Shown here in pieces: positions 982 through 61,670 of a stretch of DNA of 64,000 nt; the first letter of the stretch is position 1, and the number at the start of each line of letters is the position of its first letter. The DNA is taken from positions 2,278,001-2,342,000 of the forward strand of contig NZ_CP118224.1 of the NCBI RefSeq assembly GCF_030849025.1, read 5' to 3'. The notes under the pieces were generated by a model, which ran no database searches, was not told the DNA's origin, and saw nothing but the letters and a program-made list of their open reading frames with translations. Both the position numbers and the translations under genes were made by a program. Source of the DNA: Oceanimonas pelagia. Lineage in GTDB: Bacteria > Pseudomonadota > Gammaproteobacteria > Enterobacterales > Aeromonadaceae.

Positions 982-1098
982 GTGAGGGGTGAGGGGTGAG
1001 GGGTGAGGGGTGAGAAGAGTAACACGCCCCCAGCAGCTCTTGCGCCGAAGGTACCTTCTTTTTTTCTTCTCCTCACCCCTAACACCTCCCTCCTCACA
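982..1098. repeat. Heptamer array 1 (GTGAGGG type), inverted pair, radD leader
   Basis: The left arm, 982-1016, is about five tandem copies of the 7-mer GTGAGGG. The right arm, 1068-1098, is C-rich; its reverse complement again reads as 7-mers (GTGAGGA, GTTAGGG and similar). About 50 bp separate the arms. Base pairing would give a long imperfect hairpin that ends just before the radD ribosome site GAAGGA at 1104-1109. The left arm has regularly spaced runs of four G and could form a quadruplex. It belongs to the same family as the arrays at 6131, 43648, 56055, 59278 and 61506. Confidence 0.85.
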
Positions 1099-1116
1099 GT
1101 TCTGAAGGAACAAAGC

Positions 1117-2859
1117 ATGTTTACGTTACGTCCCTATCAGCAGGAGGCGGTTGACCGCACCCTTGCCTATTTTCGCCGCCACAGCGAGCCCGGGGTGCTG
1201 GTGCTGCCCACCGGCGCCGGCAAGAGCCTGGTGATCGCCGAGCTGGCGCGCCTCGCCCGCGGCCGGGTGCTGGTGCTGGCCCACGTGCGCGAGCTGGTGG
1301 AGCAGAACCACGCCAAGTATCAGGCCTACGGGGTGGAAGCAGATATCTTCTCCGCCGGGCTCAAGCGCCGGGAAAGCAGCCGCCAGGTGGTGTTTGGCTC
1401 GGTGCAGTCGGTGGCCCGCAACCTGAAGGCCTTCAGCGGCTTCAGCCTGGTGATCATCGACGAGTGCCACCGGGTCTCCGACGACGACAACAGCCAGTAC
1501 GCCCAGGTCATCAATCATTTGCGCGCCGGCAATCCGGCGCTCAAGGTGCTGGGACTCACCGCCACCCCCTACCGGCTGGGGCTGGGCTGGATTTACCGCA
1601 CCCACCACCATGGCATGGTGCGCAGCCGGGGCCCGCGCTTTTTTGAACACTGCCTGTTTGAGCTGCCGCTCAGACTGATGATCAAGCAGGGCTACCTGTG
1701 TCCACCCGAGCTGGTGGACGCCCCCGTGGTGCATTACGACTTTTCCCGGCTGTATGAGCAGGGCCTGTTTACCGAGCAGGCGCTGGAGCGGGAGCTGGCC
1801 CGCCAGCCCCGGGTCACGCCCCATGTGGTGGAGCAGATCAAGGACTACGCCGAAGACCGCCAGGGCGTGATGATCTTCGCCGCCACCGTGCGCCACGCCA
1901 GCGAGGTGGCCGGCCTGCTGCCCCCCGGGCACACCGCCCTGGTGACCGGCGACACGCCGGGGCCGGAGCGGGACGCTATCATTGCCCGCTTCAAGGCCAA
2001 AGAGCTCAAGTTTCTGGTGAACGTGGCGGTGCTTACCACCGGCTTTGACGCTCCCCATGTGGATCTGATCGCCATTTTGCGGCCCACCCAGTCGGTGGCC
2101 CTGTACCAGCAGATCATCGGCCGGGGCCTGCGGCTCAGTCCGGGCAAGACCGACTGCCTGGTGCTGGATTACGCCGGCAACAACATGGACATCTTCGCCC
2201 CGGAAGTGGGCGAGCCCAGGCCCAACCCCGACACCACCCAGGTGCAGGTGCCCTGCCCCGCCTGCGGCTTTGCCAATATCTTCTGGGGCAGGACCGACGC
2301 CGAGGGCCGGGTGCTGGAGCACTTTGGCCGCCGCTGCCAGGGGCTGTTTGAAGACGAAGACGGCGGGCGGGAAGAATGTGGCTACCGCTTTCGCTTTAAA
2401 AGCTGCCCCCAGTGCCTGGCGGAAAACGACATCGCCGCCCGCCAGTGCCACGACTGCGGCGAGGTACTGGTGGATCCGGACAAAAAACTGAAGGACGCCC
2501 TGGCGCTGAAGGATGCCCTGGTGCTGCGCTGCGCCGGCCTCACCCTTGAGGCCGCCAACGGCAAATACGGCCCGGCGCTGAAGGTCACCTACCACGACGA
2601 GGACGGCACCGAGCTGCACACATGGTATGCTTTCGACGCCAAGGGTCCCAAGGGCCGTTTTTACCGGGAATTTGTGCGCCCGCACTGGCCGGCGCCGGGC
2701 ACCGAGCCCGACTTTGCCGGGCTGGAGCAGGTGCTGGCCGCCGCCGGTCGTTTTCGCCACCCGGACTTTGTCATCGCCCGGGCCCACAAGCGCGGCTGGC
2801 AGGTCCGGGAAACCATTTTTGATTATCAGGGCCGGTTTCGCACCGCCCATGCCTTGTAG
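1117..2859 (+). CDS. radD: RadD (YejH) superfamily 2 DNA repair ATPase
   Basis: 580-aa SF2 helicase-like ATPase, very close in order and length to E. coli RadD/YejH (586 aa), which acts in double-strand-break repair together with RecA and SSB. The Q-like motif LRPYQQEAV opens the protein. Walker A PTGAGKS is at residues 31-37, the DECH box at 115-118, and TATPYRLG and [12 protein letters not shown] are motifs III and VI. The C-terminal third has paired cysteines (CPACGF, CPQC, CHDC) forming a probable zinc-ribbon domain. The ATG at 1117 is preferred over an upstream in-frame ATG at 1003 because the upstream piece is encoded by the heptamer repeat and because GAAGGA lies 7 nt before 1117. Confidence 0.95.
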
Positions 2860-2867
2860 AAGAGCCG

Positions 2868-6125: not shown

Positions 6126-6130
6126 TCCCG

Positions 6131-6187
6131 GTGAGGGGTGAGGAGTAAGGGGTAAGGAGTCCGTCCTCCTTACCCCTCTCTCCTCAC
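6131..6187. repeat. Heptamer array 2, inverted pair between convergent alaA and cls
   Basis: The left arm, 6131-6160, reads GTGAGGG, GTGAGGA, GTAAGGG, GTAAGGA in strict 7-bp phase. The right arm, 6164-6187, is its reverse complement with few mismatches. The two arms meet across 3 nt, so this array can form a near-continuous hairpin. It fills almost the whole 68-bp gap between the alaA and cls stop codons and no ordinary terminator is present, so it may serve as a bidirectional terminator. Confidence 0.88.
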
Positions 6188-6193
6188 CAGCTC

Positions 6194-43607: not shown

Positions 43608-43682
43608 TTACCTCACTGGCCGGAGAAACAGTCCGACCTTTAATATCGGGGATTAGGGAATAGTGATTAGTTGTAGGTACCT

Positions 43683-43704
43683 GTAGGCCCGAATTTATTC
43701 GGGC
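43683..43704 (+). repeat. REP-like palindrome headed by GTAG, copy 1
   Basis: GTAG followed by GCCCGAAT, a TT loop and ATTCGGGC, a perfect 8-bp stem. GTAG ahead of a palindrome is the layout recognised by REP-associated tyrosine transposases (RAYTs). Confidence 0.7.
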
Positions 43705-43729
43705 AATACCGTTGGCGGCTGCCATGTTC

Positions 43730-43751
43730 GCCCCACTAAAGTGGGGCCTAC
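43730..43751 (-). repeat. REP-like palindrome headed by GTAG, copy 2, inverted
   Basis: On the minus strand GTAG is followed by GCCCCACT, a TT loop and AGTGGGGC, a perfect 8-bp stem. With copy 1 it forms a head-to-head pair like a BIME. Stem sequences differ between copies, but heads and loops are shared. Confidence 0.7.
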
Positions 43752-43769
43752 AAACCCCTTAACCAGTCC

Positions 43770-44831: not shown

Positions 44832-45015
44832 AACTACCTCTGTGTAAGACGAGCGCTAGTCTAGTGAGCGCACCCTGAGGGATCAAGGCAATTCGATGTT
44901 GAAGCCAGGGCCCCGCCGCGGTGAAAACCGGGCAATCTTTGCGGTGAGCGTGATCCCGGTCAGGTTACTCAAGCATGGTGTTGGGCTATCTTGATATAAA
45001 AAGAGGAGAACCACT

Positions 45016-47912: not shown

Positions 47913-49108
47913 CAGTGCAGCCGGGCCAGCATGCGTCCGGGCTGCTCCAGGTAGCCCTGCCAGCAACGGTTGAAGCGTGCCAGGCTGGCGCCGTCCATCA
48001 CCCGGTGATCCGCCGACCAGCACACCGTCATGATGTGCCTGGCCACCACTCTGTCCTGCTCATCAAAGCGGGGCAGCCGCTGCAGCCGCCCCAGGGCGGC
48101 AATGGCCAGCTGCGGCGGCATGACGATGGGCGTGGACACGGTGCCGCCCAGCACGCCGATATTGGACAGGGTAATGGTGCCCCCCTGAAGCTCGGCCTGG
48201 GTCAGCCGGCCGGCCCGGGCCGCCCTGGTCAGCCGGCTGAGTTCCCGGGCCAGGGTGAGCAGCGACTTGTCTTCGCAGTGGTGCAGCACCGGCACCAGCA
48301 AGCCGGCCGGGGTGTCCACCGCCACCCCCACATGGTGGCCGTCTTCATACACCAGAGTCTGGCCGCCTTCTTCAAGCCGGGCGCCCGGCAACGGAAAGTC
48401 CGACAGCGCCAGTGACAGCGCCTTGATAAAAAACGGCAGCAGGGTCAACTTTACGCCTTCCCGCTCACACTCGGGCGCCAGGCGGCTTTTCAGCGCCAGC
48501 AACTCGTCGAGGCAAAATTCCTCGCAATAGGTAAAGCGGGGAACGGCGAGGCTCTCGGTCATGTGCCGGGCCATGGCGGCACGCACCCCGGTTACCGGCT
48601 CGCGCCAGGCCGACTCGGTGCGGGCCGGGGCGCCCTGCGCCGCCAGCCAGGCCTCCACGTCTTCCTTGTAGATGCGGCCCTTGTCGCCGGAGCCCGGCAC
48701 CTGCGTCAGATCCACATTGTGCTCCCGGGCCAGCCGGCGCACCGCCGGGCTGGCCACGGCACGCCGACCGCTGGCAGCCGGTGCCGATGAAACGCTTGAG
48801 GCTGGTGCCGGCTCTGCTGCCGGCCTGGGATCCTGCGCCGCCTTTTCCTGCTCGGCGGCGGTGTCTTCATCCGCCAGCTCCAGTTCAAACAGGGGAGCAT
48901 GCACCCGGGCCATGGCGCCCTTTTGCACATAGAGCCGGGAAATGGTACCGGCGTGCACCGCCGGGATCTGCACCAGCGCCTTGTCGGTCATCACATCGCA
49001 AATGGCCTGATCTTCTTCCACCCGGTCGCCCTCGGCCACCAGCCAGTCGACCAGCTCGCATTCCACTATGCCTTCGCCGATGTCCGGCAGCAGAAAGTCC
49101 TTTTTCAT
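47912..49108 (-). CDS. bkdB: Branched-chain 2-oxoacid dehydrogenase E2 (dihydrolipoyl acyltransferase)
   Basis: 398-aa E2 core subunit. A single lipoyl domain spans 1-78 with lipoyl-lysine Lys43 in MTDKALVQIPA. An Ala/Pro/Glu linker follows, then the E1/E3-binding domain near 115-155 (ASPAVRRLAREHNVDLTQVP), then the acyltransferase domain with catalytic His368 in DHRVMDG. The DKA around the lysine is typical of branched-chain rather than pyruvate E2. It is third in bkdA1-A2-B; no lpd gene follows, so the cell's general lipoamide dehydrogenase must serve as E3. Confidence 0.93.
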   Translation of the reverse strand: MKKDFLLPDIGEGIVECELVDWLVAEGDRVEEDQAICDVMTDKALVQIPAVHAGTISRLYVQKGAMARVHAPLFELELADEDTAAEQEKAAQDPRPAAEPAPASSVSSAPAASGRRAVASPAVRRLAREHNVDLTQVPGSGDKGRIYKEDVEAWLAAQGAPARTESAWREPVTGVRAAMARHMTESLAVPRFTYCEEFCLDELLALKSRLAPECEREGVKLTLLPFFIKALSLALSDFPLPGARLEEGGQTLVYEDGHHVGVAVDTPAGLLVPVLHHCEDKSLLTLARELSRLTRAARAGRLTQAELQGGTITLSNIGVLGGTVSTPIVMPPQLAIAALGRLQRLPRFDEQDRVVARHIMTVCWSADHRVMDGASLARFNRCWQGYLEQPGRMLARLH

Positions 49109-49116
49109 GGGCGCTC

Positions 49117-50094
49117 CTAAAAATTCATGGTGGCGTGAATGGCATCCAGAATTTTGTACTGGTCGGGCATGTACTGTTTTTCCAGCGCCAGCGGAAAGGG
49201 GGTATCAAGGCCGCATACCCGGGCGATGGGACTTTCCAGATACAAAAAGCAGCGCTGCTGCACGGTGGCGGCGATCTCCGCCCCCACACCACCGGTGAGC
49301 GGCGCCTCATGGCTGATCAGCAGCCGTCCGGTCTTGAGCACGGATTCCACCACAGTGTCTTCATCCCAGGGCAACAGGCTTTGCAGATCGATCACCTCGC
49401 AGGAAATACCCTCGCCTTCGGCCAGTTCGGCGGCGTTTAACAGATACTCCATCTGGGCGCCCCAGCCCAGCAGGGTGATATCCGAGCCTTGCCGCACCAC
49501 CTCGGCCTGGTCCAGCGGCAACTGGTAATGGCCTTCGTCCACCTCGGCCACCGCCGCCCGGTACAGCCGCTTGGGCTCAAAAAAGATCACCGGATCCGGG
49601 CAGTCGATGGCCGCCAGCAGCAGGCCCTTGGCCTGCACCGGCCCCCGGGGCACCAGCACCCGCAGGCCCGGCGTGTGCACAAAATAGGCTTCCGGCGACT
49701 GGCTGTGGTAGTGGCCGCCGGCAATGCCGCCGCCGTAGGGTGTGCGCACCACCAGGCCCCCCACATTGAACTGGTTGCCGGAGCGATAGCGGAATTTGGC
49801 GGTTTCGTTGACCAGCTGATCAAAGGCGGGAAAGATGTAATCGGCAAACTGGATTTCCGCCACCGGCTTCAGCCCCTTTGCCGCCAGACCGTTGGCAAAG
49901 CCGACGATGCCCTGCTCGGTGAGCGGCGTATTGAAACAGCGGTCGTTGCCGTACTTGTCCTGCAGCCCGCTGGTGGCCCGGAATACGCCGCCAAAATGGC
50001 CCACGTCCTCGCCAAAACACAGCACGGTGTCGTCCCGTGCCATGGCCAGATCCAAGGCGTTATTGACCGCCTGCAACAGGTTCATCTGCTTCAT
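49117..50094 (-). CDS. bkdA2: Branched-chain 2-oxoacid dehydrogenase E1 beta
   Basis: 325-aa beta subunit of the thiamin-diphosphate decarboxylase. Motifs: [17 protein letters not shown] with the ThDP glutamate, [19 protein letters not shown], and [15 protein letters not shown]. Its ATG overlaps the bkdA1 stop by 4 bp, and it lies 8 nt ahead of bkdB. Confidence 0.94.
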
Positions 50095-51257
50095 GCACGC
50101 TCCCTTTTCCGGTTGGCCGCATCCTGCTTTTTCAATCTGTCCAGCTGGCGCTCAAGGTGACGCGGCACCGCCGCGTATACGTCTTCCACCAGGCTCTCCA
50201 GGGGCGGCTTGTGTTTTTGCTCGGCCCGCTTCATGGCCTCCAGTATCTGCCGGCGCAGCCCATCGCTGTGGCGGCGGTCTTCATCTTCGTTGAGCCAGCC
50301 TCGATGCCCCAGCCACAGCCGGTAGCGGCCGATGGGGTCCCGCTTGCGCCAGCGCTCCTCCTCGGCCCGGGAGCGGTAGCCGCTGGGATCGTCCGACGAG
50401 GAATGGGCCCCCAGCCGGTAGGACATGGCTTCGATCAGTACCGGCTGGGGTTCCTCAAGCATCAATTGCCGGGCCTGGCGCGTGGCTTCAAACACCGCCA
50501 GGGTGTCGGCGCCGTCCACCCGCAGGGTGCGAATGCCGTAACCCACGGCACGACTGGCGATGCCGTCGCCCACGAACTGCTCGCTGGCCGGAGTGGAAAT
50601 GGCGTAGCCGTTGTTGCGGCAAAAGAAAATCACCGGGGTTTTCAGCACCGCCGCCATGTTCAGGCCGGCGTGGAAGTCCCCTTCCGAGGCCGCCCCCTCG
50701 CCGAAATAACACAGGGTTACCGCCGCCTCCCCGGCCAGCCGCTGACCGTAGGCATAACCGGTGGCCTGGGGAATTTGCGTGGCCAGAGGCGAGGAAATGG
50801 TCATGAAATTGAGTTCACGGCAACCGTAGTGCACCGGCATCTGCCGGCCTCTGCCCAGATCGTCTTCATTGGAAAACAGCTGGTTCATGAACTGATCCAG
50901 GGTAAATCCCCGGTGCAGCAGCGCCCCCTGCTCCCGGTACTGGGCCAGGATCATATCGTCGGGTGCCAGCGCCGCGGCACTGGCCACCGCCTGCGCCTCT
51001 TCCCCCAGACTTTGCAGGTAAAAGCTGATACGCCCCTGGCGCTGGGCCGCCAGCATGCGCTCATCCAGCAGGCGGGTAGCGACCATGCTGCGGTACATGG
51101 CCAGGGCCTGCTGCCTGTCGAGCACGGGCTCGGCGGCATCGGCATAAAGCTGGCCATCGTCCTTCAGCAGCCGAAAGGTGGGAATGGTCAGGCCGTGGCC
51201 GTCCACGAACCGGGCCCGGTGCACCAGGGTAATGGTGGCGTTATTGGGATTGGTCAT
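50091..51257 (-). CDS. bkdA1: Branched-chain 2-oxoacid dehydrogenase E1 alpha
   Basis: 388-aa alpha subunit, strikingly like mitochondrial BCKDHA in the stretches [34 protein letters not shown] and [13 protein letters not shown]. The ThDP-magnesium motif begins GEG at 186-188 and ends NN near 215. The loop [14 protein letters not shown] carries Ser286-288 and Ser292, lined up with the phosphorylated loop of the human enzyme. It oxidises keto acids from Val, Leu and Ile. ATG at 51257 has GAGG upstream; TTG at 51275 is less likely. Confidence 0.94.
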
Positions 51258-51337
51258 GCCGCCCTCGCAGTCCAACTGGAACCTCGTGGCTAATTCTAGT
51301 CGCTTTTATTCCGGCGGCCCGGCCTGGCGCCCAACGA

Positions 51338-51366
51338 AAAAAGGCAGCCCGAAGGGCTGCCAAAAA
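51338..51366 (-). terminator. Terminator of aceA
   Basis: GGCAGCCC/GGGCTGCC stem capped by TTCG on the minus strand, followed by TTTTTT, about 45 nt past the aceA stop and upstream of the bkd start. Confidence 0.92.
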
Positions 51367-51409
51367 CGAGATGGACCTTGAAGTGTTGTAATTATGCGGC
51401 TTAACCCGG

Positions 51410-53008
51410 TCAGATGTTTTCGAACTGACCCATGGTGTTGTCCTTGCCGCCGGCCTTGAGCGCGGCTTCGCCGGCGAAGAACTCCTTGTGGTCGTCACCG
51501 ATGTTGGAGCCGGCCATGTCCTGGTGCTTGACGGTGGCGATGCCCTGACGGATTTCCTGACGCTGAACGCCCGCCACATAGGCCAGCATGCCTTCGTCGC
51601 CGAAGTAACCCTTGGCCAGATTGTCGGTGGACAGGGCCGCGGTGTGGTAGGTCGGCAGGGTGATCAGGTGGTGGAAGATGCCGGCTTCCCGGGCCGCGTC
51701 GGCCTGGAAGGTACGCACCTTCTCGTCGGCGGCCAGGGCCAGCTCGGTGGCGTCGTAATCGGCGCTCATCAGGCGATCCCGGTCGTAGGCAGAGACGTCC
51801 TTGCCTTCGGCGGCCCAGGCGTCGAACACCTGCTGACGGAAGTTCAGGGTCCAGTTGAAGGACGGGCTGTTGTTGTACACCAGCTTGGCATCGGGCACCA
51901 CGGCGCGAATGCGGTCCACCATGCCCTTGATCTGGCCGATATGGGGCTTCTCGGTTTCAATCCACAACAGGTCGGCACCGTGCTGCAGGCTGGTGATGCA
52001 GTCCAGCACCACCCGGTCTTCACCGGAGCCGGCCTTGAACTGGAACAGGCCGGAAGGCAGACGCTTGACCTTTTTCAGCTTGCCGTTGGACTTGATGACC
52101 ACGTCGCCGTTGTCGATTTCGTCGGCGCTGTTGATGTAGTCGCCGTCAAGAAAGCTGTTGTACTGGTCGCCCAGATCGCCCGGCTCGTTGGTCACGGCAA
52201 TCTGCTTGGTCAGACCGGCACCCAGGGAGTCGGTACGGGCCACAATCACACCATCGTCTACCCCCAGCTCGAGGAAGGCCAGACGCACGGCGTTGATCTT
52301 GGCCAGGAAGTCGGCATGGGGCACGGTGACCTTGCCGTCCTGGTGGCCGCACTGTTTCTCGTCGGACACCTGGTTTTCCAGCTGAATACAGCAGGCACCG
52401 GCTTCTATCATCTTTTTGGCCAGCAGGTAGGTGGCTTCGGCATTACCAAAGCCGGCATCGATGTCGGCGACAATCGGCACGATATGGGTTTCGTGATTGT
52501 CGATTTGAGCTTCAATTTCCCTGGCCTTGGCGCTGTCACCGGCCTTCTGAGCGTCTTCCAGGGCACGGAACAGGTGGTTCAGCTCCCAGGCATCGGCCTG
52601 ACGCAGGAAGGTATACAGCTCTTCGATCAGCGCCGGTACCGAGGTTTTCTCGTGCATGGACTGATCCGGCAGCGGGCCGAATTCGGAGCGCAGGGCGGCC
52701 ACCATCCAGCCGGACAGGTACAGGTAGCGACGCTTGGTGCTGCCAAAGTGCTTCTTGATGGAAATCAGCTTCTGCTGACCGATAAAGCCGTGCCAGCAGC
52801 CCAGGGACTGGGTGTATTGCGCCGGATCCTTGTCGTAGGCGGCCATGTCTTCGCGCATGATTTTGGCGGTGTACCTGGCAATGTCGAGGCCGGTCTTGAA
52901 TTGGTTCTGCACCCGCATGCGGGCGGCATGTTCGGGCTTGATGGCACCCCAGGTCGGGTTCTGCTTGATCAGCGTGGCCAGGGTATCGATCTCATTGGCG
53001 TATGGCAT
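51410..53008 (-). CDS. aceA: Isocitrate lyase, long Pseudomonas-type
   Basis: 532-aa isocitrate lyase, about 100 residues longer than E. coli AceA and like the 531-aa Pseudomonas enzyme. It splits isocitrate to glyoxylate and succinate for growth on acetate, fatty acids and ketogenic amino acids. The catalytic motif KQCGH is at 218-222 with Cys220; VADIDAGFGNAEATY binds magnesium. No malate synthase or aceK is adjacent, unlike the enteric aceBAK operon. It lies directly upstream of the bkd operon on the same strand, with a terminator between. Confidence 0.97.
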   Translation of the reverse strand: MPYANEIDTLATLIKQNPTWGAIKPEHAARMRVQNQFKTGLDIARYTAKIMREDMAAYDKDPAQYTQSLGCWHGFIGQQKLISIKKHFGSTKRRYLYLSGWMVAALRSEFGPLPDQSMHEKTSVPALIEELYTFLRQADAWELNHLFRALEDAQKAGDSAKAREIEAQIDNHETHIVPIVADIDAGFGNAEATYLLAKKMIEAGACCIQLENQVSDEKQCGHQDGKVTVPHADFLAKINAVRLAFLELGVDDGVIVARTDSLGAGLTKQIAVTNEPGDLGDQYNSFLDGDYINSADEIDNGDVVIKSNGKLKKVKRLPSGLFQFKAGSGEDRVVLDCITSLQHGADLLWIETEKPHIGQIKGMVDRIRAVVPDAKLVYNNSPSFNWTLNFRQQVFDAWAAEGKDVSAYDRDRLMSADYDATELALAADEKVRTFQADAAREAGIFHHLITLPTYHTAALSTDNLAKGYFGDEGMLAYVAGVQRQEIRQGIATVKHQDMAGSNIGDDHKEFFAGEAALKAGGKDNTMGQFENI

Positions 53009-53743
53009 GGTTTCAGTCCTGTCTTGTTGTCGTTGAGCAATCGGCGCCCAAACAGTTGTACATCCCTGTCAAACCAGCGTTTACACCGCCGTTCGGCTGG
53101 TTTGGCAGTACTTCGGTGTTGTTGTTTTTATGTGCGGCCTTGCAGCTCGCTTCCGTTTGTTCGGCGGGTTACGGTCATGTGCCTTACCGAACCCTTGCCC
53201 GTTTCTTTTGCGTTGCGGTGTGACTATTACGTTGCGCAAAAAAAACAGTTCGATCAAGATCCAATTTAACTAAAACACAACATGCGTCACATAACCCCAC
53301 TGGCCTAATACTAAAGCATAACTGGCTCTAAACCCTTAAATTAAGCCACATCAACCCGCCACCACATTCCACAGCAATACCTGAAAAAGAAAAAATAAAA
53401 CGTAAATAAACAACAAAAAATCACAAAACATTGGATTTAACTCAATATTATGAGTGAATGGCAAACACGCGCCACCGCCCACTTCAGCCCCCATAAAGCC
53501 GGGCAGGGTGGGCGCTCAATACAGCGAGAGGTATTTTTTTTGCGTTCGCAAAAAACAGGGGGAACAACAGGATCACGGCCACGAACACCGGGCAGTGTTG
53601 TTGTTTTGTCATATTCCATGACGCCGGTCAGCTTTGCCTTTAGGAGCGCACCGGCACGCGCTCCTGGGGCCCGGTCGGCGGCGGCCACGACAACAAAAAA
53701 TGTTTTTGACTGAGGGCTGAAATGTGGCCCGGCACGGTTGTTG

Positions 53744-53780
53744 ATTGGTTAAGACAATCAATTTAATAGAAAAGAATGAT
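53744..53780 (+). promoter_or_regulatory. OxyR-type binding site upstream of ahpC
   Basis: Four tetranucleotides at exact 7-bp spacing: ATTG (53744-53747), CAAT (53755-53758), ATAG (53766-53769), TGAT (53777-53780). They agree with the OxyR pattern ATAG-N7-CTAT-N7-ATAG-N7-CTAT at 12 of 16 positions. The site ends at the -35 element, as expected for an OxyR-activated promoter. Confidence 0.7.
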
Positions 53781-53809
53781 TTCACCGAATGAACGGCTTT
53801 ACCTAACAT
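53781..53809 (+). promoter_or_regulatory. Promoter of ahpC
   Basis: TTCACC at 53781-53786 (-35) and TAACAT at 53804-53809 (-10) with a 17-bp spacer, directly downstream of the OxyR-like site. Confidence 0.55.
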
Positions 53810-53857
53810 GAGCAGCGTTCGAAACACACTCACTCAGAGAAACACAAGGAGCTATTC

Positions 53858-54424
53858 ATGGCCGTTTCCATCAATACCGAAATCAAGCCCTTTACCGCCC
53901 AGGCCTATTACAACGGTGACTTCGTGCAGGTGACCGAGGCCGACCTCAAGGGCAAATGGTCCGTGGTGTTCTTCTACCCGGCCGACTTTACCTTTGTCTG
54001 CCCCACCGAACTGGGCGATCTGGCCGACCATTATGACGAGCTGCAGCGCATGGGCGTGGAAGTGTTTGCCGTCTCCACCGACACTCACTTTACCCACAAG
54101 GCCTGGCACGACAGCTCCGAGACCATCGGTAAAATCCGCTACTACATGGTGGGCGACCAGACCGGCACCATCACCAACAACTTCGGCGTGATGCGTGAGG
54201 GCCAGGGCCTGGCCGACCGCGCCACCTTCATCATCGATCCCGAAGGCGTGATCCAGGCCATGGAAATCACTGCAGAAGGCATTGGCCGCGATGCCGCCGA
54301 TCTGCTGCGCAAGATCAAGGCCGCCCAGTATGTGGCTGCCCACCCGGGTGAGGTGTGCCCCGCCAAGTGGCAGGAAGGCGAAGCCACCCTGGCCCCGTCC
54401 CTGGATCTGGTTGGCAAGATCTAA
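53858..54424 (+). CDS. ahpC: Alkyl hydroperoxide reductase peroxiredoxin AhpC
   Basis: 188-aa typical 2-Cys peroxiredoxin (E. coli 187 aa) that reduces H2O2 and organic peroxides. The peroxidatic Cys48 is in [10 protein letters not shown] and the resolving Cys167 in [16 protein letters not shown] lies 7 nt before the ATG. It is followed by ahpF with a terminator between, so ahpC transcripts should exceed ahpF. Confidence 0.98.
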
Positions 54425-54441
54425 TCATCCAGACGGCTTGC

Positions 54442-54480
54442 ACCCGGCCCGCCCATATTCGGCGGCGGGCCGGGTTTTTT
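54442..54480 (+). terminator. Terminator/attenuator between ahpC and ahpF
   Basis: A 12-bp GC-rich stem ACCCGGCCCGCC/GGCGGGCCGGGT with a 10-nt loop is followed by TTTTTT. It lies 18 nt past the ahpC stop and 29 nt before ahpF. Confidence 0.9.
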
Positions 54481-54508
54481 ACACCCCATTTTCAGCACAG
54501 GACACGTT

Positions 54509-56050
54509 ATGTTGGATGCCAATCTCAAAAAACAACTGGACACCTATCTGCAACACATCGTCTCGCCGATAGCGATCAGCGTGTCCGGTGATGACTCTGC
54601 AAAATCACACGAATTACGGGAGCTGGCTGGCGAAATCAGCGCGCTCTCAAGCAAGATCAGCCTGGAGCAGGCGCCCGCCGCCCGCACCCCCAGCATGAGC
54701 ATTGCCGCCGCCGGCCAGGCGCCCCGGGTGGCCTTTGCCGGCGTGCCCATGGGCCACGAGTTCACTTCCCTGGTGCTGGCGCTGCTGCAGACCGGCGGTC
54801 ATCCGTCCAAGGCCGCCCCCGAGTTGCTGGAGCAGATCCGCAACCTTGAAGGTAAATACCACTTTGAAACCTATGTGTCGCTGTCGTGCCAGAACTGCCC
54901 GGATGTGGTGCAGGCCCTGAACCTGATGGCAACACTGAATCCCAATATCAGCCATGTGATGATAGATGGCGCCCTGTTTCAGGACGAGGTCAACGAGCGC
55001 AATATCATGGCGGTGCCCGCCGTTTTTCTTAACGGCGCGCATTTTGGCCAGGGCCGCATGACCCTGGAGGAAATCGTCGGCAAGCTGGACACCGGTGCCG
55101 CCGAGCGTCAGGCCGCCGCCCTGAATGAGCAGGCTCCCTTTGACGTGCTGGTGGTGGGCGGTGGCCCCGCCGGCGCAGCGGCCGCCATCTATGCCGCCCG
55201 CAAGGGGGTGCGCACCGGCCTGGTGGCGGAGCGCTTCGGTGGCCAGGTGATGGACACGGTAGGCATAGAGAACTTTATTTCCGTGCCCTATACCGAGGGT
55301 CCGAAACTGGCGGCCAGCCTGGAGCAGCACGTCAGGGAATATGAGGTGGAACTGATCACCAGCCAGCGCGCCGCCGGCCTTCGCCAGAGCGAGCTGATTG
55401 AAGTCCCGCTGGAAAGCGGCGCCGTGCTCAAAAGCAGGTCGGTGATCCTCGCCACCGGCGCCCGCTGGCGCGAGCTGAACGTGCCCGGCGAGGCCGAATA
55501 CCGCACGCGGGGCGTGGCCTACTGCCCCCACTGCGACGGTCCCTTCTTCAAGGGCAAGCGGGTGGCCGTAGTGGGTGGCGGCAACTCCGGCATTGAGGCG
55601 GCCATCGATCTGGCGGGCATCGTCGAGCACGTGACCGTGCTGGAATTCGCCGACAGCCTGCGCGCCGACGAGGTGCTGCAGCGCAAGGCGCGCTCCATGG
55701 GCAATATCGATATCATCATGAATGCCCGGACCACAGCAGTGCTGGGGGACGGCAGCAAGGTGACCGGTCTGCAATACACCGACCGCACCAGTGGTAAAGC
55801 CCAACACCTGGAGGTGGCCGGCATCTTTGTACAGATTGGCCTGGTGCCCAATACCGAGTTTCTGCAAGGCTCGGAAGTGGAGCGGACCCGCACCGGCGAG
55901 GTGATCATCGACAGCCGGGGCGCCACCTCCATGGCCGGTGTGTTTGCCGCCGGCGACGCCACGACCGTACCCTACAAGCAGATCATTATTTCCATGGGGG
56001 CCGGCGCCACCGCCGCCCTGGGCGCCTTTGATCACCTGATCCGGTCGTAA
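54509..56050 (+). CDS. ahpF: Alkyl hydroperoxide reductase flavoprotein AhpF
   Basis: 513-aa FAD enzyme (E. coli 521 aa) that uses NADH to reduce AhpC. The N-terminal double thioredoxin fold has the CQNC dithiol at Cys127 and Cys130. The thioredoxin-reductase-like part has [19 protein letters not shown] (FAD), CPHCDGP (active disulfide near 335) and [17 protein letters not shown] (NADH). A final FAD motif [19 protein letters not shown] closes it. It is convergent with yejK across a 34-bp gap. Confidence 0.97.
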
Positions 56051-56054
56051 AACC

Positions 56055-56093
56055 GGGGAATGGGGAATAGGGATTCCCTGCTCCCTATTCCCC
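56055..56093. repeat. Heptamer array 4, perfect 12-bp inverted repeat
   Basis: GGGGAATAGGGA (56062-56073) and TCCCTATTCCCC (56082-56093) form a perfect 12-bp stem with an 8-nt loop, with an extra GGGGAAT unit on the left at 56055-56061. It lies between convergent ahpF and yejK, and overlaps the yejK 3' end: the last codons GGG GAA TAG are part of the repeat. Confidence 0.9.
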
Positions 56094-57083
56094 GCCTTTT
56101 AGTTGCGCCTTGAGGTTGGGCGGCGTGCCCTTGATGGTGAGGGTGTCGGTGGCCGGATCGTATTCGATGCGCTCGCCCAGCAGCTTCTGATCGAAGCTGA
56201 TGGTCAGCCCGCCTCCCGAGCCCACATATTTGGTCAGGCCCTTGAGGGCCGAACGGTCCACCGGAAACCGCTCCTCGAGGGCATATTCCTCGCTGACAAA
56301 CTGATAAAAGTCGAGATCGTCATCGGTGCCCAGCTCCGCCGACAGTTCGCGCAACTCCAGCTCTTCCCCTTCCTTGAGCTGCTCCCGGCAATACTTGCTG
56401 ATGGTGGCCTTGCTCTGTTCACGCTCTTCCTTGCTCAGCTGGCGGACCTCGCAGTATTCCTCCACTGCCTTCATCAGCCCCTGACTCTGGGCCCTGGGAT
56501 CCATACCCTCGACGCAGGACAGAAAGTTGAGAAAGAAATCCGACACCTTGCGCCCGGCCCGGCCCTTGATAAAGGAGAAGTAGCGTTTTGACTCGGGACG
56601 CGTCTGCAGCTCGGTCAGATCCAACCGCGCCGCCAGCTGCATGCGCCCCAGATCCAGGTAGCTGGCCCGGCTGACGTCGAGCTTGTCGGTCACAGTCACG
56701 CTGTCCTTATTATCGAGCAGGGCGATCAGCAGGTAGCGGGCCCCCAGCCAACGGTAGCGTACAAACAACAGCACGCCTTCTTCCTGCATGTCCAGCCGGT
56801 TCAGCTCGCCCAGCAACCGCTCGGCGGCCAGGTGGGAAAACGGCGCAAAGCCCAGGCTCTGATCCTCCATGCGCCGCACCAGATCGCGAAAGCCGGTGTC
56901 TTCGTCACTGAAATAGCCAAACACCTTGCCGGCCTTGGTGTTGTAAACGTGATGCAGCTCGCTCATCAGCTGGTTCACCGCCGGGCCCGTGGCCAGCTCG
57001 TCGTCGCGCCTGGCGAGCGCCGTCTGGCCCTGCTCATTGATAAACAGGGAGTGCACTATGATGTGTTCGATGTCCAGGCTCAT
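56085..57083 (-). CDS. yejK: Nucleoid-associated protein YejK (NdpA)
   Basis: 332-aa nucleoid protein (E. coli 335 aa) of unknown precise role that binds the chromosome. It starts MSLDIEHIIVHSLFINEQGQ and contains YVGSGGGLTISFDQKLLGER. The end NLKAQLKGGE is followed by TAG; the GE and stop come from the heptamer repeat, so the native terminus was altered slightly. It is divergent from yejL. Confidence 0.95.
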   Translation of the reverse strand: MSLDIEHIIVHSLFINEQGQTALARRDDELATGPAVNQLMSELHHVYNTKAGKVFGYFSDEDTGFRDLVRRMEDQSLGFAPFSHLAAERLLGELNRLDMQEEGVLLFVRYRWLGARYLLIALLDNKDSVTVTDKLDVSRASYLDLGRMQLAARLDLTELQTRPESKRYFSFIKGRAGRKVSDFFLNFLSCVEGMDPRAQSQGLMKAVEEYCEVRQLSKEEREQSKATISKYCREQLKEGEELELRELSAELGTDDDLDFYQFVSEEYALEERFPVDRSALKGLTKYVGSGGGLTISFDQKLLGERIEYDPATDTLTIKGTPPNLKAQLKGGE

Positions 57084-57160
57084 GTCAGATTGCCATAGAG
57101 TTGCCGAATGGGGTGGGGTATTATAGACGCCCTGTTACCAAGTTAAACGATTGAACGCCC

Positions 57161-57388
57161 ATGCCTGTTATTTCCAAGTACGACAAACAATTTGACCAGT
57201 TGCTGAGCGAGCTGGAGGCGGTGATGGACAAACACCAGGCCCCGGCGGACCTGCGGCTGATGGTACTGGGCAACCTGGCCACCCATGTGATCAATCACCA
57301 GGTGGCCCCCGGCCAGCGCAAGGCCATTGCCGACAAGTTCGCCAGTGTGCTGACCTCCTCCGTCGACACGCAAAAAGGGGCGCACTGA
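57161..57388 (+). CDS. yejL: YejL, DUF1414 protein
   Basis: 75-aa conserved protein (E. coli YejL 75 aa) of unknown function. It starts MPVISKYDKQFDQLLSELEAVMDKH; the middle has the family stretch LRLMVLGNLATHVIN. It lies between yejK (divergent) and yejM, 32 nt before the latter. Confidence 0.93.
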   Translation: MPVISKYDKQFDQLLSELEAVMDKHQAPADLRLMVLGNLATHVINHQVAPGQRKAIADKFASVLTSSVDTQKGAH

Positions 57389-57420
57389 GCGCCCTTTCAT
57401 TCACCGAGATTCACCCCCTC

Positions 57421-59274
57421 ATGGTTGAAACCGGCCCCCACTACCGCGATAACGTCTCCCGCCTGATCGGCTGGGGCCACTGGTTTGTCTTTTTCAACAT
57501 ACTGCTGGCCATGGCGGTGTCCGTCCGCTATCTGTTTGCCGCCGGCCTGCCCGACAGCGCCCTCGGCATGGGCTACATGCTGGTCAGCTGGGTGGGGCAC
57601 TTTGCCTTTCTTACCTTCTGCACCTACCTGCTCACCCTGTTTCCGCTGACCTTTGTGTTTCCCCGGCTCAGGGCGGTGCAGTTTCTCGGGGCCGGCATCG
57701 CCACCGCCGCCCTCACCCTGCTGCTGGTGGACACTCAGGTATTCAGCCTGTTCGGCTTTCACCTTAATCCGGCGGTATGGCGGCTGCTGCTGGACCAGGC
57801 CCAGGCGGAAGGGGCCCCGGGCTGGGGCTGGCTGTTTGCCTGGGTGCCGGTGCTGTTCGTGCTGGAGCTGTGGCTGGGCGCCTGGCTGTGGCGCTGGAGC
57901 CGGGGCCGTTCCCGCTCGCTGTCGCGGCCGCTTACCCTGCCGCTGCTGGTTTGCTTTTTCCTCACCCACAGCGTGCATATCTGGGCCGACGCCACCCTGT
58001 ATACTCCCATTACCCTGCAGAAGGCCAACTTTCCCCTCTCCTACCCCATGACCGCCAAGGGCTTTCTGATCCGTCAGGGCTGGCTGGACGAGGAAAGTTA
58101 CCGCCAGCGCTCCGAGCAGGTGGCCGACAACCCGCAGCAGCGGCTCAGTTACCCGCTGCGTCCGCTGTCGGTACAGCCTCCGGAGCAAGCACCCAATATT
58201 CTGCTGGTGGTGGCCGACGGCCTGCGTGCCGATCAGCTCGATGCCATCACCATGCCCAACCTGAGCCGTTTTGCCGCCCAGCACCTGCGCTTTGACAATC
58301 ACCTCAGCGCCGGCAACCGCCCCGAGCCGGCCCTGTTCAGTCTGTTCTACAGCCTGCCCGCCCACTACCGGCGGGAAGCCGAGCTAGAGCGGGTAGCGCC
58401 GGTGCTGATCAACGAACTGCAGCGCCAGGACTATCGCATTGGCCTGTTTGCCAGCGGCGGCACCGACGCGGACCTGTACCGGAATGCCATTTTCAGCACC
58501 CTGCGCAGCCCTGCCATGGAGCCGGCCCCCGGCGGCGCCGAGGGCGACCGCCGAGTGCTGGGCCGTTTTGCCGGCTGGCTGAGCCAGCAGCCGGACGATC
58601 GCCCTTGGTTTTCCTATGTCTACCTGGATGCGCTCAATGCGCTGTCGCTGCCCGAGGGCATGACCGGCCCCTTTCAGCCGTCGCTGACGCAACTGAACCC
58701 GGCCGACAGTTACCGGGCCGAACAGCACGAGGCCCTGCTCAACCGTTATCGCAACGCCGTGTTTTATACCGATCAGTTGCTGGGCGGCCTGCTGGGCCTG
58801 GTGCAGGGTCTGGAGCGGAACACCCTGGTGGTGGTGACCTCCGGCCATGGCATGGAATTCAACGACAACGGCAATAACACCTGGGGCTTTGGCAACGCCT
58901 ATTCACCAGCCCAGTTGCGCGTGCCGCTGGTGATTGCCTGGCCCGGACGCGATGCCCCCGCACGTTTCAGTCACCCCACCAGCCATCTGGATCTGGCGCC
59001 TACCCTGTTGCAACAGGCTCTGGGCGTGACCAATCCGCTGCGCAGCTATGCCAGTGGCCAGTCGCTGTTTGCGGTGCGTCCGAACCGCTGGCGGCTGGCA
59101 TCGGATGAAGAGGAATACGCCATTTATCAGAATGGTGACATCACCCTGTTCAACCGGCGCGGCGATCTGCAGTTGCTGAATGCCACCGATTACGGCGAGC
59201 GGGAAGGAAGCAATCCGGAGCTGACCCTGCTGATGCAGGTAATGAACGAGCTGAACCGGTTTCAGGGGAAATAG
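57421..59274 (+). CDS. yejM: LapC/PbgA (YejM), inner-membrane regulator of LPS synthesis
   Basis: 617-aa protein with five N-terminal membrane helices (residues about 20-190, DUF3413) and a periplasmic sulfatase-fold domain. E. coli YejM (586 aa) senses periplasmic lipid A and controls FtsH-LapB degradation of LpxC. Sulfatase-like motifs LLVVADGLRADQLDAITMPNL and VVVTSGHGMEFNDN are present, though the family is not an active sulfatase. It ends in RFQGK, with the TAG stop just before heptamer array 5. It is convergent with nlpC. Confidence 0.95.
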   Translation: MVETGPHYRDNVSRLIGWGHWFVFFNILLAMAVSVRYLFAAGLPDSALGMGYMLVSWVGHFAFLTFCTYLLTLFPLTFVFPRLRAVQFLGAGIATAALTLLLVDTQVFSLFGFHLNPAVWRLLLDQAQAEGAPGWGWLFAWVPVLFVLELWLGAWLWRWSRGRSRSLSRPLTLPLLVCFFLTHSVHIWADATLYTPITLQKANFPLSYPMTAKGFLIRQGWLDEESYRQRSEQVADNPQQRLSYPLRPLSVQPPEQAPNILLVVADGLRADQLDAITMPNLSRFAAQHLRFDNHLSAGNRPEPALFSLFYSLPAHYRREAELERVAPVLINELQRQDYRIGLFASGGTDADLYRNAIFSTLRSPAMEPAPGGAEGDRRVLGRFAGWLSQQPDDRPWFSYVYLDALNALSLPEGMTGPFQPSLTQLNPADSYRAEQHEALLNRYRNAVFYTDQLLGGLLGLVQGLERNTLVVVTSGHGMEFNDNGNNTWGFGNAYSPAQLRVPLVIAWPGRDAPARFSHPTSHLDLAPTLLQQALGVTNPLRSYASGQSLFAVRPNRWRLASDEEEYAIYQNGDITLFNRRGDLQLLNATDYGEREGSNPELTLLMQVMNELNRFQGK

Positions 59275-59277
59275 CAG

Positions 59278-59342
59278 GGATTAGGGATTAGGGATGGTGT
59301 GAGCAGTTAATTCCCCCGTCACCAGTCCCTATTCCCTGTTAT
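59278..59342. repeat. Heptamer array 5, inverted pair between convergent yejM and nlpC
   Basis: The left arm, 59278-59295, reads GGGATTA, GGGATTA, GGGAT. The right arm, 59322-59342, is CCAGTCCCTATTCCCTGTT, with the same CCAGTCCCTA start as the right arms of arrays 3 and 6. The loop is about 25 nt. It fills nearly the whole gap between the two stops, and no other terminator is present. Confidence 0.85.
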
Positions 59343-59870
59343 TCAGTCCAGTACCCGGCGGGCCTGCCAGTAACGGCTGCGCCAGTAGACGTTGTCCAGG
59401 CTGGAAATGGTCACCCCCACGCTCGATGAGGCATGAGCAAATTTGCCATTGCCGATATACACGCCATTGTGGCGCATGCTGCGGCCGGTGCGGAAAAACA
59501 CCAGGTCACCCGGACGCAGTTCGTCCCGCTCCACTTCCCGGCCCAGCAACACCTGCTCATTGGTGCTGCGTGGCAGCTCCATGCCAAAGGCTTCCTGATA
59601 CAGGGTCTGGGTAAAGGCAGAGCAGTCGATGCCGTCCGCCCCCTCACCGCCAAAGCGGTAAGGCACGCCCCGCCAGCGCTGATAGACCTGATGCAAATCG
59701 CTGACCGTGGCCAGGGTCCGTTTGGGCTTCATGGGCTGGGTGCTGATGCTGTAAGTCAGGGAAGAGGACGGCTTTTTGCCAGTCATCCTTTTGCCTGACT
59801 CGAGGCCCTGGGTGCTGCTGCACCCGGCCATCACAAGCAGACTGCCGATAACAATGATATGTTTGATCAT
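59343..59870 (-). CDS. nlpC: NlpC/P60 family lipoprotein endopeptidase
   Basis: 175-aa probable peptidoglycan endopeptidase anchored as a lipoprotein (lipobox MAGC near residue 17). The NlpC/P60 domain has the catalytic cysteine in GIDCSAFTQTLYQ, the histidine in MRHNGVYIGNGKFAHASSS and the following conserved DNVYW. E. coli NlpC is 154 aa with the same end motif WQARR. ATG at 59870 fits the signal peptide; no strong ribosome site is seen. Confidence 0.9.
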   Translation of the reverse strand: MIKHIIVIGSLLVMAGCSSTQGLESGKRMTGKKPSSSLTYSISTQPMKPKRTLATVSDLHQVYQRWRGVPYRFGGEGADGIDCSAFTQTLYQEAFGMELPRSTNEQVLLGREVERDELRPGDLVFFRTGRSMRHNGVYIGNGKFAHASSSVGVTISSLDNVYWRSRYWQARRVLD

Positions 59871-59938
59871 ATGAACAATGGCAACCAAAGAATGGGCTCC
59901 AGCATAGTCCAATTTCTGCGTACTTTGCAAAGCGAAAA

Positions 59939-60655
59939 ATGAGCGAAAACAATGATATTGACGTCGAACTGCTGATTTGTGACGTCATGGCGATTAAGTC
60001 ACCACAAACTGTCTGCAAAACGCTCTCCCCGGCAGAGCGCCAGCGCCTGGACGGCATCACCAATGCGGTCCAGGCCCGGCTGTTTTTACTGGGCCGTTAC
60101 CTGTTGCGCCAGCGCCTGGGCCGGTTGCTGGGCCAGCCCCCGGCCACCCTTGAAATCGGCCTGAGCGACAAGGGCAAGCCCGAGCTGGCCGGCGGCGGCT
60201 GGCAGTTCAACCTGAGCCACAGCGGTTCCCTGCTGGCGCTGGCGCTGAGCCCGCACTCGGCCGTGGGGGTGGATCTGGAGAGGCGACAACTGGAGCCGGC
60301 ACGCATCACCCGCCTGGCCCGGCGCTACCTGGCCGGCGCCGAACAGGCATGGCTGACTCAGAGCCGGCAACCGGCCCAAGACTTTCAGCGGCTGTGGACC
60401 GTCAAGGAAGCCGTGCTCAAGGCCGGCGGCGATGGCATTGCCAACAACCTGGACCGGGTCGAGTGGCGTCCCGGCGAGCCCCGGGCGCACTTCAACGAGC
60501 GGGTTTACCGGCTGTATCAGGGCCGGGCCGCCGATGCCAGTCTCACCCTGGCGGTGGCGGGAGAGCCCGGCCGGCTGCGCCGGCTTTCCCTTGCCGATTG
60601 CGCGCCGGCGCTTGAAATTACCGGACCGCAACCCAATCTAGCCATAAACCCCTAA
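59939..60655 (+). CDS. 4'-phosphopantetheinyl transferase, Sfp/AcpT type
   Basis: 238-aa Sfp-type enzyme that attaches phosphopantetheine to carrier proteins. Motifs: NLSHSGSLLALALSP and GVDLERR (magnesium site) and LWTVKEAVLKAGGDG, the W-x3-KEA motif. Length suits the Sfp class rather than the short AcpS. No polyketide or peptide synthetase cluster is nearby, so it likely serves fatty-acid ACP or a distant carrier. The start lacks a strong ribosome site. Confidence 0.88.
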   Translation: MSENNDIDVELLICDVMAIKSPQTVCKTLSPAERQRLDGITNAVQARLFLLGRYLLRQRLGRLLGQPPATLEIGLSDKGKPELAGGGWQFNLSHSGSLLALALSPHSAVGVDLERRQLEPARITRLARRYLAGAEQAWLTQSRQPAQDFQRLWTVKEAVLKAGGDGIANNLDRVEWRPGEPRAHFNERVYRLYQGRAADASLTLAVAGEPGRLRRLSLADCAPALEITGPQPNLAINP

Positions 60656-60667
60656 TGAGGCTTTTCA

Positions 60668-61504
60668 ATGATCCTTGATATCACGGTAGAGAATTTTCAG
60701 CAGGCACTGCTTCAGGCCTCCATGGATAAAACGGTGGTGGTGTTTTTCCACGCCGATCAGGTGCCCGAATGCCAGCCCATGCGCCCCCTGCTTGAGGGGC
60801 TGATTGGCGCCGATAACAGCCATGTGGATCTGGCCCGGGTGGATGTGGCCGATCCGCAACTGCAAAGCCTGGCCATGCAACTGGGTCTGCAGGCACTGCC
60901 GGCCCTGGTAGCGTTCAAGGGCGGCCAGCCGGTGGACATGCTGGAAGGCCCTCAGGACGAGGCCGCGCTCAGGGCGTTTCTCAAGCCCTACCTGCCCAAC
61001 GAGGCCGAGCTGCTGCTGGATCAGGCCAGGCAGATGCTGGGCGTGGATCCCAAAGCCACCTATGGACTGCTGCAACAGGCCCGGGGGCTGGAAGACACCC
61101 CGGCCATTCGCCTGACCCTGGCCGAGACGGCCCTGGCCCTGAACAAGCTGGAAGAAACCCGGCAGTTGCTCGACACCATCGGCATGGCGGATCAGGACAG
61201 TCAGTACCAGCACGTGCTGGCCCGGCTGGAGCTGGCGGAAGAAGCCGCCGACAGCCCCGAACTGCGCGAGCTGGAGCAGAAGCTGGCCGCCTCGCCGGAA
61301 GATCTGGGCCTGAAGGAAGAGCTGGCGGTGCAGTATTTTCAGGCCGGCCGCCAGGAAGAAGCCCTGCAGTTACTGACCGAAATCCTGCAACGGGATCTGG
61401 CTTTCGGCGAGGCCAGAAAGCACCTGCTCGACATGCTCACCAGCATGGGCGCCGATCCGGTGGCATCCCGCTACCGCCGCAAGCTGTACAGCATGCTGTA
61501 CTGA
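60668..61504 (+). CDS. cnoX: Chaperedoxin CnoX (YbbN)
   Basis: 278-aa protein with an N-terminal thioredoxin fold (residues 1-108) and C-terminal TPR-like repeats, close to E. coli CnoX/YbbN (284 aa), which guards proteins from over-oxidation and passes them to GroEL. The usual CGPC is VPEC here: the first cysteine is lost, as is the case in E. coli, so it is not a normal thioredoxin. ALPALVAF carries the cis-Pro. It lies 12 nt after the transferase gene. Confidence 0.9.
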   Translation: MILDITVENFQQALLQASMDKTVVVFFHADQVPECQPMRPLLEGLIGADNSHVDLARVDVADPQLQSLAMQLGLQALPALVAFKGGQPVDMLEGPQDEAALRAFLKPYLPNEAELLLDQARQMLGVDPKATYGLLQQARGLEDTPAIRLTLAETALALNKLEETRQLLDTIGMADQDSQYQHVLARLELAEEAADSPELRELEQKLAASPEDLGLKEELAVQYFQAGRQEEALQLLTEILQRDLAFGEARKHLLDMLTSMGADPVASRYRRKLYSMLY

Positions 61505-61505
61505 T

Positions 61506-61670
61506 AAGGACCAAGGACTAGGGACTAGGGACTAGGGACTAGGGACTAGGGACTAGGGACTAGGGACTAGGGACTAGGGACTAGGGACTAGGGACTAGGG
61601 ACTAGGGACTAGGGACTAGGGACCAAGGATAACTTACCAGTCCCTAATCCCCATTCCCCGATCCCTGAGT
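61506..61670. repeat. Heptamer array 6: 14 perfect AGGGACT units plus inverted C-rich arm
   Basis: The left arm, 61506-61630, holds two degenerate units (AAGGACC, AAGGACT), then 14 identical AGGGACT units (61520-61617), then AGGGACC and AAGGAT. The right arm, 61638-61670, is C-rich with mixed units (CCAGTCCCTAATCCCCATTC and on). It lies between convergent cnoX and the NSS transporter gene. The homogeneous left arm against the mixed right arm points to recent copy-number expansion. With runs of three G every 7 nt it fits the quadruplex pattern G3-N4. Confidence 0.97.

Follow-up and report, generated by a model that had tools for sequence, protein, structure and literature searches.

Inverted heptamer arrays at gene ends of Oceanimonas pelagia: candidate U-tract-poor hairpins with probable replication-strand-dependent arm growth

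In a 64-kb stretch of the Oceanimonas pelagia chromosome (hereafter the window; G000:C1:2278001-2342000 of 3,592,406 bp), all six heptamer arrays described in an original prediction made from the sequence alone were found in place. All repeat at 7 bp and run from a G-rich arm on the left to a C-rich one on the right. The "six-member" family of that prediction was a large undercount, since a whole-genome search located arrays of two main unit classes in at least 69 intergenic places. We consider it rather probable that these arrays are gene-end hairpins poor in U-tracts and that their arms lengthen by replication slippage that depends on orientation. Several bacteria have an excess of heptamer repeats, for which, to our knowledge, no origin or function is generally accepted. 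The two mirror copies of one repeat in a gap provide an internal control for repeat growth, and the leading/lagging question can be addressed with sequenced genomes and by resequencing with long reads. Should the hairpins terminate transcription, a terminator could retain its role through a complete change of sequence, and many gene ends of the Oceanimonas group would escape terminator finders that rely on motifs.

Placement between genes and T-tract terminators

The background for placement consisted of 409 neighbouring-gene gaps in 462 kb (the window and 20 evenly spaced stretches), of which 273 were tandem, 69 convergent and 67 divergent. Genes were called with our own codon model and no published gene finder. 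Convergent gaps accounted for 42/69 listed array sites compared with 69/409 background gaps (p 2e-13), and divergent gaps were depleted of arrays (p 0.0014). The convergent enrichment was positive at every minimum gap length tried, with odds ratios of 6.6, 6.9, 7.0 and 9.2 at 1, 30, 60 and 100 bp, respectively. Within the background sample, which outside the window was not selected for arrays, arrays lay in seven convergent, three tandem and one divergent gap.

T-tract terminators, defined as a hairpin followed by at least five T in eight, were present in 7/34 array gaps versus 23/31 other convergent gaps of the O. pelagia genome (p 2e-5; gaps of 25–300 bp, with a gene-score filter applied to the non-array gaps only). 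The comparison was extended to the loci of 15 relatives together with the orthologous region of O. pelagia, where convergent gaps had to measure at least 20 bp. Here 32 gaps held an array only, 10 a terminator only, 5 both and 6 neither, which places terminators in 5/37 array gaps versus 10/16 others (p 6e-4; the orthologous sites are not independent). The median fold z was −4.65 in array gaps (n=34), −4.1 in T-tract gaps and −2.35 in gaps with neither. Judged as Rho-independent terminators, the arrays had the GC-rich RNA hairpin behind the gene, and a U-tract directly past it in only 7/34 array gaps. That arrays had been taken up as terminators, as originally predicted, is plausible in view of the convergent enrichment and the replacement of T-tract terminators. 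From the sequences we infer a terminator function for arrays that, with swapping of unit class, replace T-tract terminators at convergent gene ends.

Replication strand and arm length

GC skew in 20 stretches of the O. pelagia chromosome was positive between 3.34 and 1.38 Mb (by way of position zero) and negative at 1.54–3.18 Mb. The G-rich strand of long perfect class A arrays (units of the type GGGANTR) was the minus strand in the positive-skew part and mostly the plus strand in the negative-skew part, that is, it lay on the leading-strand template and corresponded to the nascent lagging-strand sequence. This rule was first noticed in O. pelagia and afterwards tested in other genomes, with local 20-kb GC skew as the replichore proxy and four class A arrays with a skew below 0.005 dropped. 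It applied to 18/19 arrays in O. pelagia, 19/23 in G002, 16/20 in G003, 3/3 in G005, 7/8 in G015 and 3/3 in G017, in total 66/76 class A arrays in six genomes (p 3e-11), where class A denotes any unit with GGGA and admits one GGGAGAC array (G002) and one GGGACTT array (O. pelagia). The rule was followed by 48/57 arrays when O. pelagia was left out (p 1.5e-7) and by 18/18 class A arrays of at least eight units, the length bins having been chosen after the data were seen. Stretches of G003, G005, G015, G017 and a second family with GGGAATC arrays were hand-picked among the strand-labelled matches listed before the skew was known, those of G003 being mostly pure arrays; for G002, the skew of the first batch was already known when the second was chosen. 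Only one listed G002 cluster beyond 2.1 Mb was left out (2900200, a mixed array contrary to the rule), and a direct count of G002 among the matches listed gave 21/28 fitting clusters, with 2156734 counted as fitting despite its ambiguous skew. Base composition would act in the opposite direction, because by skew it is the leading strand that is G-rich.

The arms of single elements differed in the same sense. In the class A elements of O. pelagia the arm predicted to be longer was longer in 21, shorter in 8 and tied in 2 (sign test p 0.02, Wilcoxon p 0.002), and where the arms differed by at least 7 bp the ratio was 12 to 1. Growth driven by transcription, with R-loops on a G-rich non-template strand expanding the arms, would draw on the instability of (G3T)8 in Escherichia coli, which is strongly raised by transcription (PMC7023247), and at convergent gaps the directions of fork and gene are indistinguishable. 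At tandem gaps, however, the rule fitted 23/27 arrays, including 19/22 where the genes were on the leading strand, while the long G arm was antisense to the flanking genes in 20/27 and sense in only 7/27; transcription is therefore not a likely driver, and we rate this explanation as highly unlikely. Replication-strand-dependent growth is statistically strong in the Oceanimonas group. In Zobellella taiwanensis (L084 9138 and 11415), two expanded arrays separated by about 2 kb lay on opposite strands, one of them contrary to the rule.

Genome-wide inventory and unit classes

Class A units included GGGACTA, GGGATTA, GGGAATA and GGGACTG, and class B units (RGTRAGG) included GTGAGGG and GTAAGGG. 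The whole genome contained 256 matches to GGGANTRGGGA and 32 to GGTRAGGRGTRAGG. The respective counts in the window were 27 and 4, against 0.36 and 0.00 expected from 100 shuffles; 26 of the 27 GGGANTRGGGA matches lay inside arrays 3–6 and the remaining one was intragenic, at 13204. Sites were taken from 75 clusters among the matches listed, two of which gave no arm; the class B listing was whole, and class A sites were mostly sampled up to approximately 2.7 Mb among the matches listed. Arms were found in 74 rows representing 73 distinct places among the matches listed, of which 42 were convergent, 25 tandem, 2 divergent and 4 intragenic, the last probably being chance matches. Over-representation between genes was evident, with 69/73 listed places intergenic and 49/69 carrying two arms of a single class (31 A/A and 18 B/B, besides two mixed sites and one with class A opposite an undecided arm). 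Four of the 49 A/A and B/B sites had overlapping arm calls; in the 45 that could be ordered, the G-rich arm always came first on the plus strand.

Tandem repeats in the sampled gaps had a period of 7 almost exclusively. A search without preset words, requiring 13 of 14 successive bases to match at a fixed lag, yielded five matches at lag 7, four at lag 14 and one at lag 15 in the O. pelagia gaps (lags 4–15), with none at other lags or in shuffles. In the 15 relatives' loci (lags 5–12) there were 16 matches at lag 7 and one at lag 12.

Two rival explanations of the arrays invoke the unit itself. The GGG-N4 period could be maintained by a need for the arm to form a G-quadruplex in DNA or RNA, and related heptamers adopt such structures in vitro (PMC4692102). 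A four-tract motif was present in 42/78 class A arms but missing in the other 36 and in 39/42 class B arms of like place and layout, and we regard a G-quadruplex requirement as very unlikely. As a common feature the G-quadruplex was rejected because it fails for class B (motif in 3/42 arms); it may aid the slippage of class A. The other explanation is translational: 7 equals 1 modulo 3, and stop-bearing units would close every frame behind a gene. Every class B unit contains TGA or TAA, 22/42 class B arms have stops in each of the three sense frames, and the stop codons of queA and yejK are supplied by arrays 3 and 4. Only 10/78 class A arms, in contrast, stop all three frames and 21/78 stop none, and the units GGGACTC, GGGACTG and GGAAGCT have no stop codon. 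All-frame stopping was rejected for its failure in class A, and we judge it extremely unlikely.

Turnover at orthologous gaps and distribution

Three orthologous gaps were compared in 15 relatives, with sites that are not independent of each other. An array was often kept while its class or unit changed. Homologues of the yejM gene place the window in Oceanimonas (Aeromonadaceae), and in a tree of YejM the nearest relative was Oceanimonas sp. CHS3-5 (92% identity, support 95/94). At the ahpF/yejK gap O. pelagia carried class A, as did O. smirnovii and three Oceanisphaera, whereas CHS3-5 and O. marisflavi shared a common class B form. Since O. pelagia and CHS3-5 are sisters, while the other branch holds both A and B, a single change does not suffice at this gap. 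O. baumannii and one metagenome-assembled genome had hairpins without heptads, and on one strand that of the latter qualified as a T-tract terminator. In four Zobellella an additional gene was inserted and T-tract terminators were present; O. pacifica, read by eye, had GGAAGCT repeats and a T-tract terminator. The yejM/nlpC gap contained GGGGACT units in Z. taiwanensis and Z. endophytica and about ten GGTGACT units in Z. denitrificans, with one substitution throughout the whole array.

The distribution was surveyed in 61 genomes (23 of the same GTDB genus, 14 others of the family and 24 others of the order). Class A matches per genome numbered 1–367 in the genus (10/23 above 100), 1–18 in the rest of the family and 0–9 in the rest of the order. 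By these counts, array expansion characterises the Oceanimonas-Zobellella-Oceanisphaera group, inside which array number varies greatly.

The original prediction had offered, as one origin, spread as mobile non-coding elements, considered here in a form similar to repetitive extragenic palindromic (REP) sequences or REPINs, carried by a RAYT or other enzyme and later used as terminators. Many dispersed sites, the change from A to B in both arms together at one orthologous gap, and the coupling of arms by class (31 A/A and 18 B/B against 2 mixed) agree with it, as does the finding that partner arms pair no better than others, as if drawn from a common pool. The arrays, however, had no constant core or ends by eye and their unit varied from site to site. 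No matching RAYT emerged from a search that covered Y1 transposases only: PF01797 was detected in 18/23 genomes of the genus and did not track array number, the five genomes without it including the array-rich G012 (174 class A matches) and G009 (117), and O. pelagia had a single weak, stop-containing match. RAYT or Y1 transposase was dropped as the driver, as no relation to array counts was visible by eye in the 23 genomes (no statistic was applied). We consider spread as mobile elements quite unlikely. The same prediction had alternatively proposed growth from a templated process. A physical origin of growth is borne out, and replication slippage fits better than the copying of a single template, each site having its own unit.

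Proposed mechanism

Each element pairs two G-rich heptad arms that face one another where a gene ends, and the G-rich strand would fold during replication. With this strand as the leading-strand template, slippage would add 7-nt units; with it as the lagging-strand template, units would tend to be lost. One arm would then lengthen while its mirror arm remains short, and mutated units would be homogenised. An E. coli result cited in PMC7023247 is that hairpins on the leading template favour duplications and those on the lagging template deletions. We are fairly confident of slippage with G-strand folding, gain on the leading template, a tendency to loss on the lagging template and homogenisation of units. 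Once transcribed, the hairpin may act in both directions, either as a U-tract-poor terminator or as a stable RNA 3' end, a proposal that we consider evenly balanced. More tentatively, native G-rich heptamer arrays may record the direction of replication through gain on the leading template and loss in the mirror arm and, in the Oceanimonas group, may remake sequence-agnostic bidirectional terminators, with the sequence swapped between species and the place and fold kept.

Several results weigh against slippage-grown terminator hairpins. Ten of the 76 class A arrays were contrary to the strand rule, and class B showed no rule (7/12 arrays; O. pelagia arms 8 vs 7). In the A/B scheme 17/69 listed sites were one-armed. 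Partner arms in O. pelagia paired no better than same-class arms elsewhere (p 0.80 for 28 class A sites and 0.33 for 17 class B sites), so there was no site-level co-variation. Tandem sites, where no stop codon adjoins, showed no T excess past the hairpin (0.28 at 11 class A sites and 0.22 at 6 class B sites, background 0.23). The (G3T)n data of PMC7023247 itself show little difference between leading and lagging orientations. In the second family, where 40 stretches were studied (34 at arrays), the rule was weak, fitting 30/47 arrays of at least 2.8 units (p 0.08), and arrays showed neither a convergent preference (present in 32/492 tandem, 6/83 convergent and 3/81 divergent gaps) nor an exclusion of terminators (1/5 gaps with arrays vs 14/50 without). 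The convergent preference and terminator exclusion are therefore claimed for the Oceanimonas group only. Separately, a T excess past class A C-arms (0.35 vs 0.23) was dropped as support, as it was not seen at tandem sites.

The second family came from a search for runs of GGGAATCGGGAATCGGGAATCGGGA, which occurred in 1/377 genomes drawn from the class and in 9/41 genomes of the family to which that one belongs, by its repeat type presumably Xanthomonadaceae. The rule was followed by 24/35 arrays of at least 4 units (p 0.04), 14/16 of at least 5 (p 0.004) and 6/7 of at least 8, compared with 15/29 below 4.5 units; bin sums differ by a few arrays between filters. These counts are suggestive of a rule in long arrays only, which agrees with the published absence of strand preference by plain count in PMC4692102.

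Some of these results would be expected of neutral simple repeats, that is, functionless products of heptad slippage tolerated mostly between gene ends. Arm expansion tracks replication and not genes, array number ranges from 1 to 367 matches within the genus, the GGGAATC arrays lack a convergent preference, and partner arms are unmatched at single sites. Neutral repeats would not account for the replacement of T-tract terminators, for hairpin folding beyond that of shuffles or for orthologous gaps that keep their arrays although the class changes, and we think a purely neutral origin unlikely.

Arrays and other features in the window

Four of the six arrays, at 6131, 56055, 59278 and 61506, lay in convergent gaps. 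As originally predicted, these gaps held no other terminator: our screen found no T-tract terminator in any of the four, and in a looser scan array 4 scored as terminator-like through its own hairpin, which has the tail CCTTTTAGTT and a short T run. RNA folds of the window elements beat all 200 shuffles in 7/7 cases. No Rfam family matched in the window at gathering scores, and a promoter scan of 43501-63500 gave two sites versus 4.4 in shuffles, neither at an array.

Array 2, of class B, had a left arm of mixed GTGAGG/GTAAGG heptads (6130–6160, plus strand) and a right arm at 6165–6189 (minus strand, fold z −6.10) in a convergent gap. The remaining convergent arrays were of class A. The left arm of array 4 (56055–56075, plus) began 4 bp past the ahpF stop codon and was followed by the right arm at 56076–56093 (minus, fold z −5.04 and −4.67), of which a TAG serves as the stop codon of yejK (56085-57083, minus). 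Array 5, past yejM, had arms at 59276–59297 (plus) and 59321–59338 (minus, fold z −6.44). In array 6 the expanded left arm consisted of 15.6 perfect copies of GGGACTA (61508–61629, plus), its G-rich strand being the leading-strand template, and the short mirror arm consisted of about four dissimilar class A heptads (61636–61666, minus, fold z −4.70). Array 3, also of class A, lay between the co-directional queA and tgt, with arms at 43648–43670 (plus) and 43762–43793 (minus, fold z −6.08); queA (43770-44831, minus) takes its stop codon from a TAG in the right arm. The right arms of arrays 3, 5 and 6 had CCAGTCCCTA in common, as the prediction had stated.

Array 1, of class B, had a left arm of approximately 4.7 copies of GTGAGGG (980–1014, plus) and a right arm of imperfect heptads (1069–1098, minus, fold z −3.99). 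It lay in a divergent gap (896 minus / 1117 plus) with an enoyl-CoA reductase gene and radD on either side, directly upstream of radD, and was one of only two divergent-gap arrays among at least 69 sites. Its loop (array 980–1105) held a run of T. A role as leader or attenuator at radD is possible.

The loop of array 3 contained a REP-like double palindrome, TGTAGGCCC...GGGCCTACA (43680–43755, no strand assigned). Such palindromes were also seen in array loops or beside arms at L010, L017, L022 and L025. REP-like palindromes adjoined several single arms and, with two types counted together, were near 8/69 listed array sites. Two pairs of one-armed or distant arms proved to be halves of single elements, one of class A and one of class B, interrupted by one insertion sequence type with an HTH_Tnp_1 and an rve integrase-core open reading frame (L017 1656–2833; L060 between the chromosome arms 3400530 and 3401853). 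The period-7 words GGAAGCT and AGCNRTM (class C) occurred at gene ends (L091 8454; L046 7346; L019 1876; L075 2532 and 2712), and at L091 a canonical T-tract terminator was flanked by heptads. Four convergent gaps, one of them in O. pelagia, had AGCNRTM opposite a class A arm. A further O. pelagia heptamer class, CGTGAGA/ACGTCTC, was observed at L063 14174 (11.3 units) and L074 3670 (3.4 units).

Comparison with known systems

Palindromic intergenic repeats dispersed over a genome are known as REP or REPIN sequences with their RAYT. The heptad arrays are likewise intergenic and dispersed, but their units vary and Y1 transposases do not correlate with them. Intrinsic terminators without a U-tract act as bidirectional hairpins at convergent gene ends; the arrays, which from their sequence would terminate transcription similarly, differ in that they consist of tandem heptads and are entirely replaced from one species to the next.

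Among the papers listed from the open-access literature (most subscription papers lie outside this scope) we found none on this family of arrays in these genera and no report of strand-dependent growth of native heptamer arrays, the closest being PMC4692102 and PMC4679880. Tandem repeats of Borgs have been described as well (PMC9879509). The TAACTGA repeats of Beggiatoaceae (MacGregor 2015, PMC4679880) are intergenic tandem heptamers, also found in Cyanobacteria and Bacteroidetes. They are direct repeats of one fixed unit, mostly located directly upstream of start codons, whereas the Oceanimonas arrays are inverted, have variable units and lie at gene ends. The repeats of PMC7023247 were cloned in E. 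coli plasmids; here, the asymmetry was derived from chromosomes in their native state, where an element offers two mirror arms.

The most similar system is the G-rich heptamer repeats of Rehm et al. 2015 (PMC4692102), with the unit GGGAATC in Xanthomonas and GGGGAYT in Nostoc. Transcript starts and stops were commoner at G-quadruplex-capable repeats than at control repeats, and a conjecture is relayed that links the period to the DNA segment at the polymerase active site. Class A qualifies as a G-rich heptamer repeat (unit GGGANTN or GGGGAYT, at least two units), and class B (RGTRAGG) does not fit. In both systems the repeats are over-represented between genes and often occur as inverted pairs whose arms face each other. 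According to that paper, the repeats are absent from other gamma-proteobacteria, have one main unit per genome and lie mostly between aligned open reading frames, with 16% convergent. Unlike these, the Oceanimonas arrays occur in a different gamma-proteobacterial family, have several unit classes and are mainly convergent rather than between aligned reading frames (42 convergent, 25 tandem and 2 divergent among the 69 listed); they also show T-tract replacement, class change at orthologous gaps and growth according to fork direction. G-rich heptamer repeats as such were thus already known, and the additions made here are the replacement of T-tract terminators with class swapping at convergent gene ends and the replication-strand-dependent growth of the arrays.

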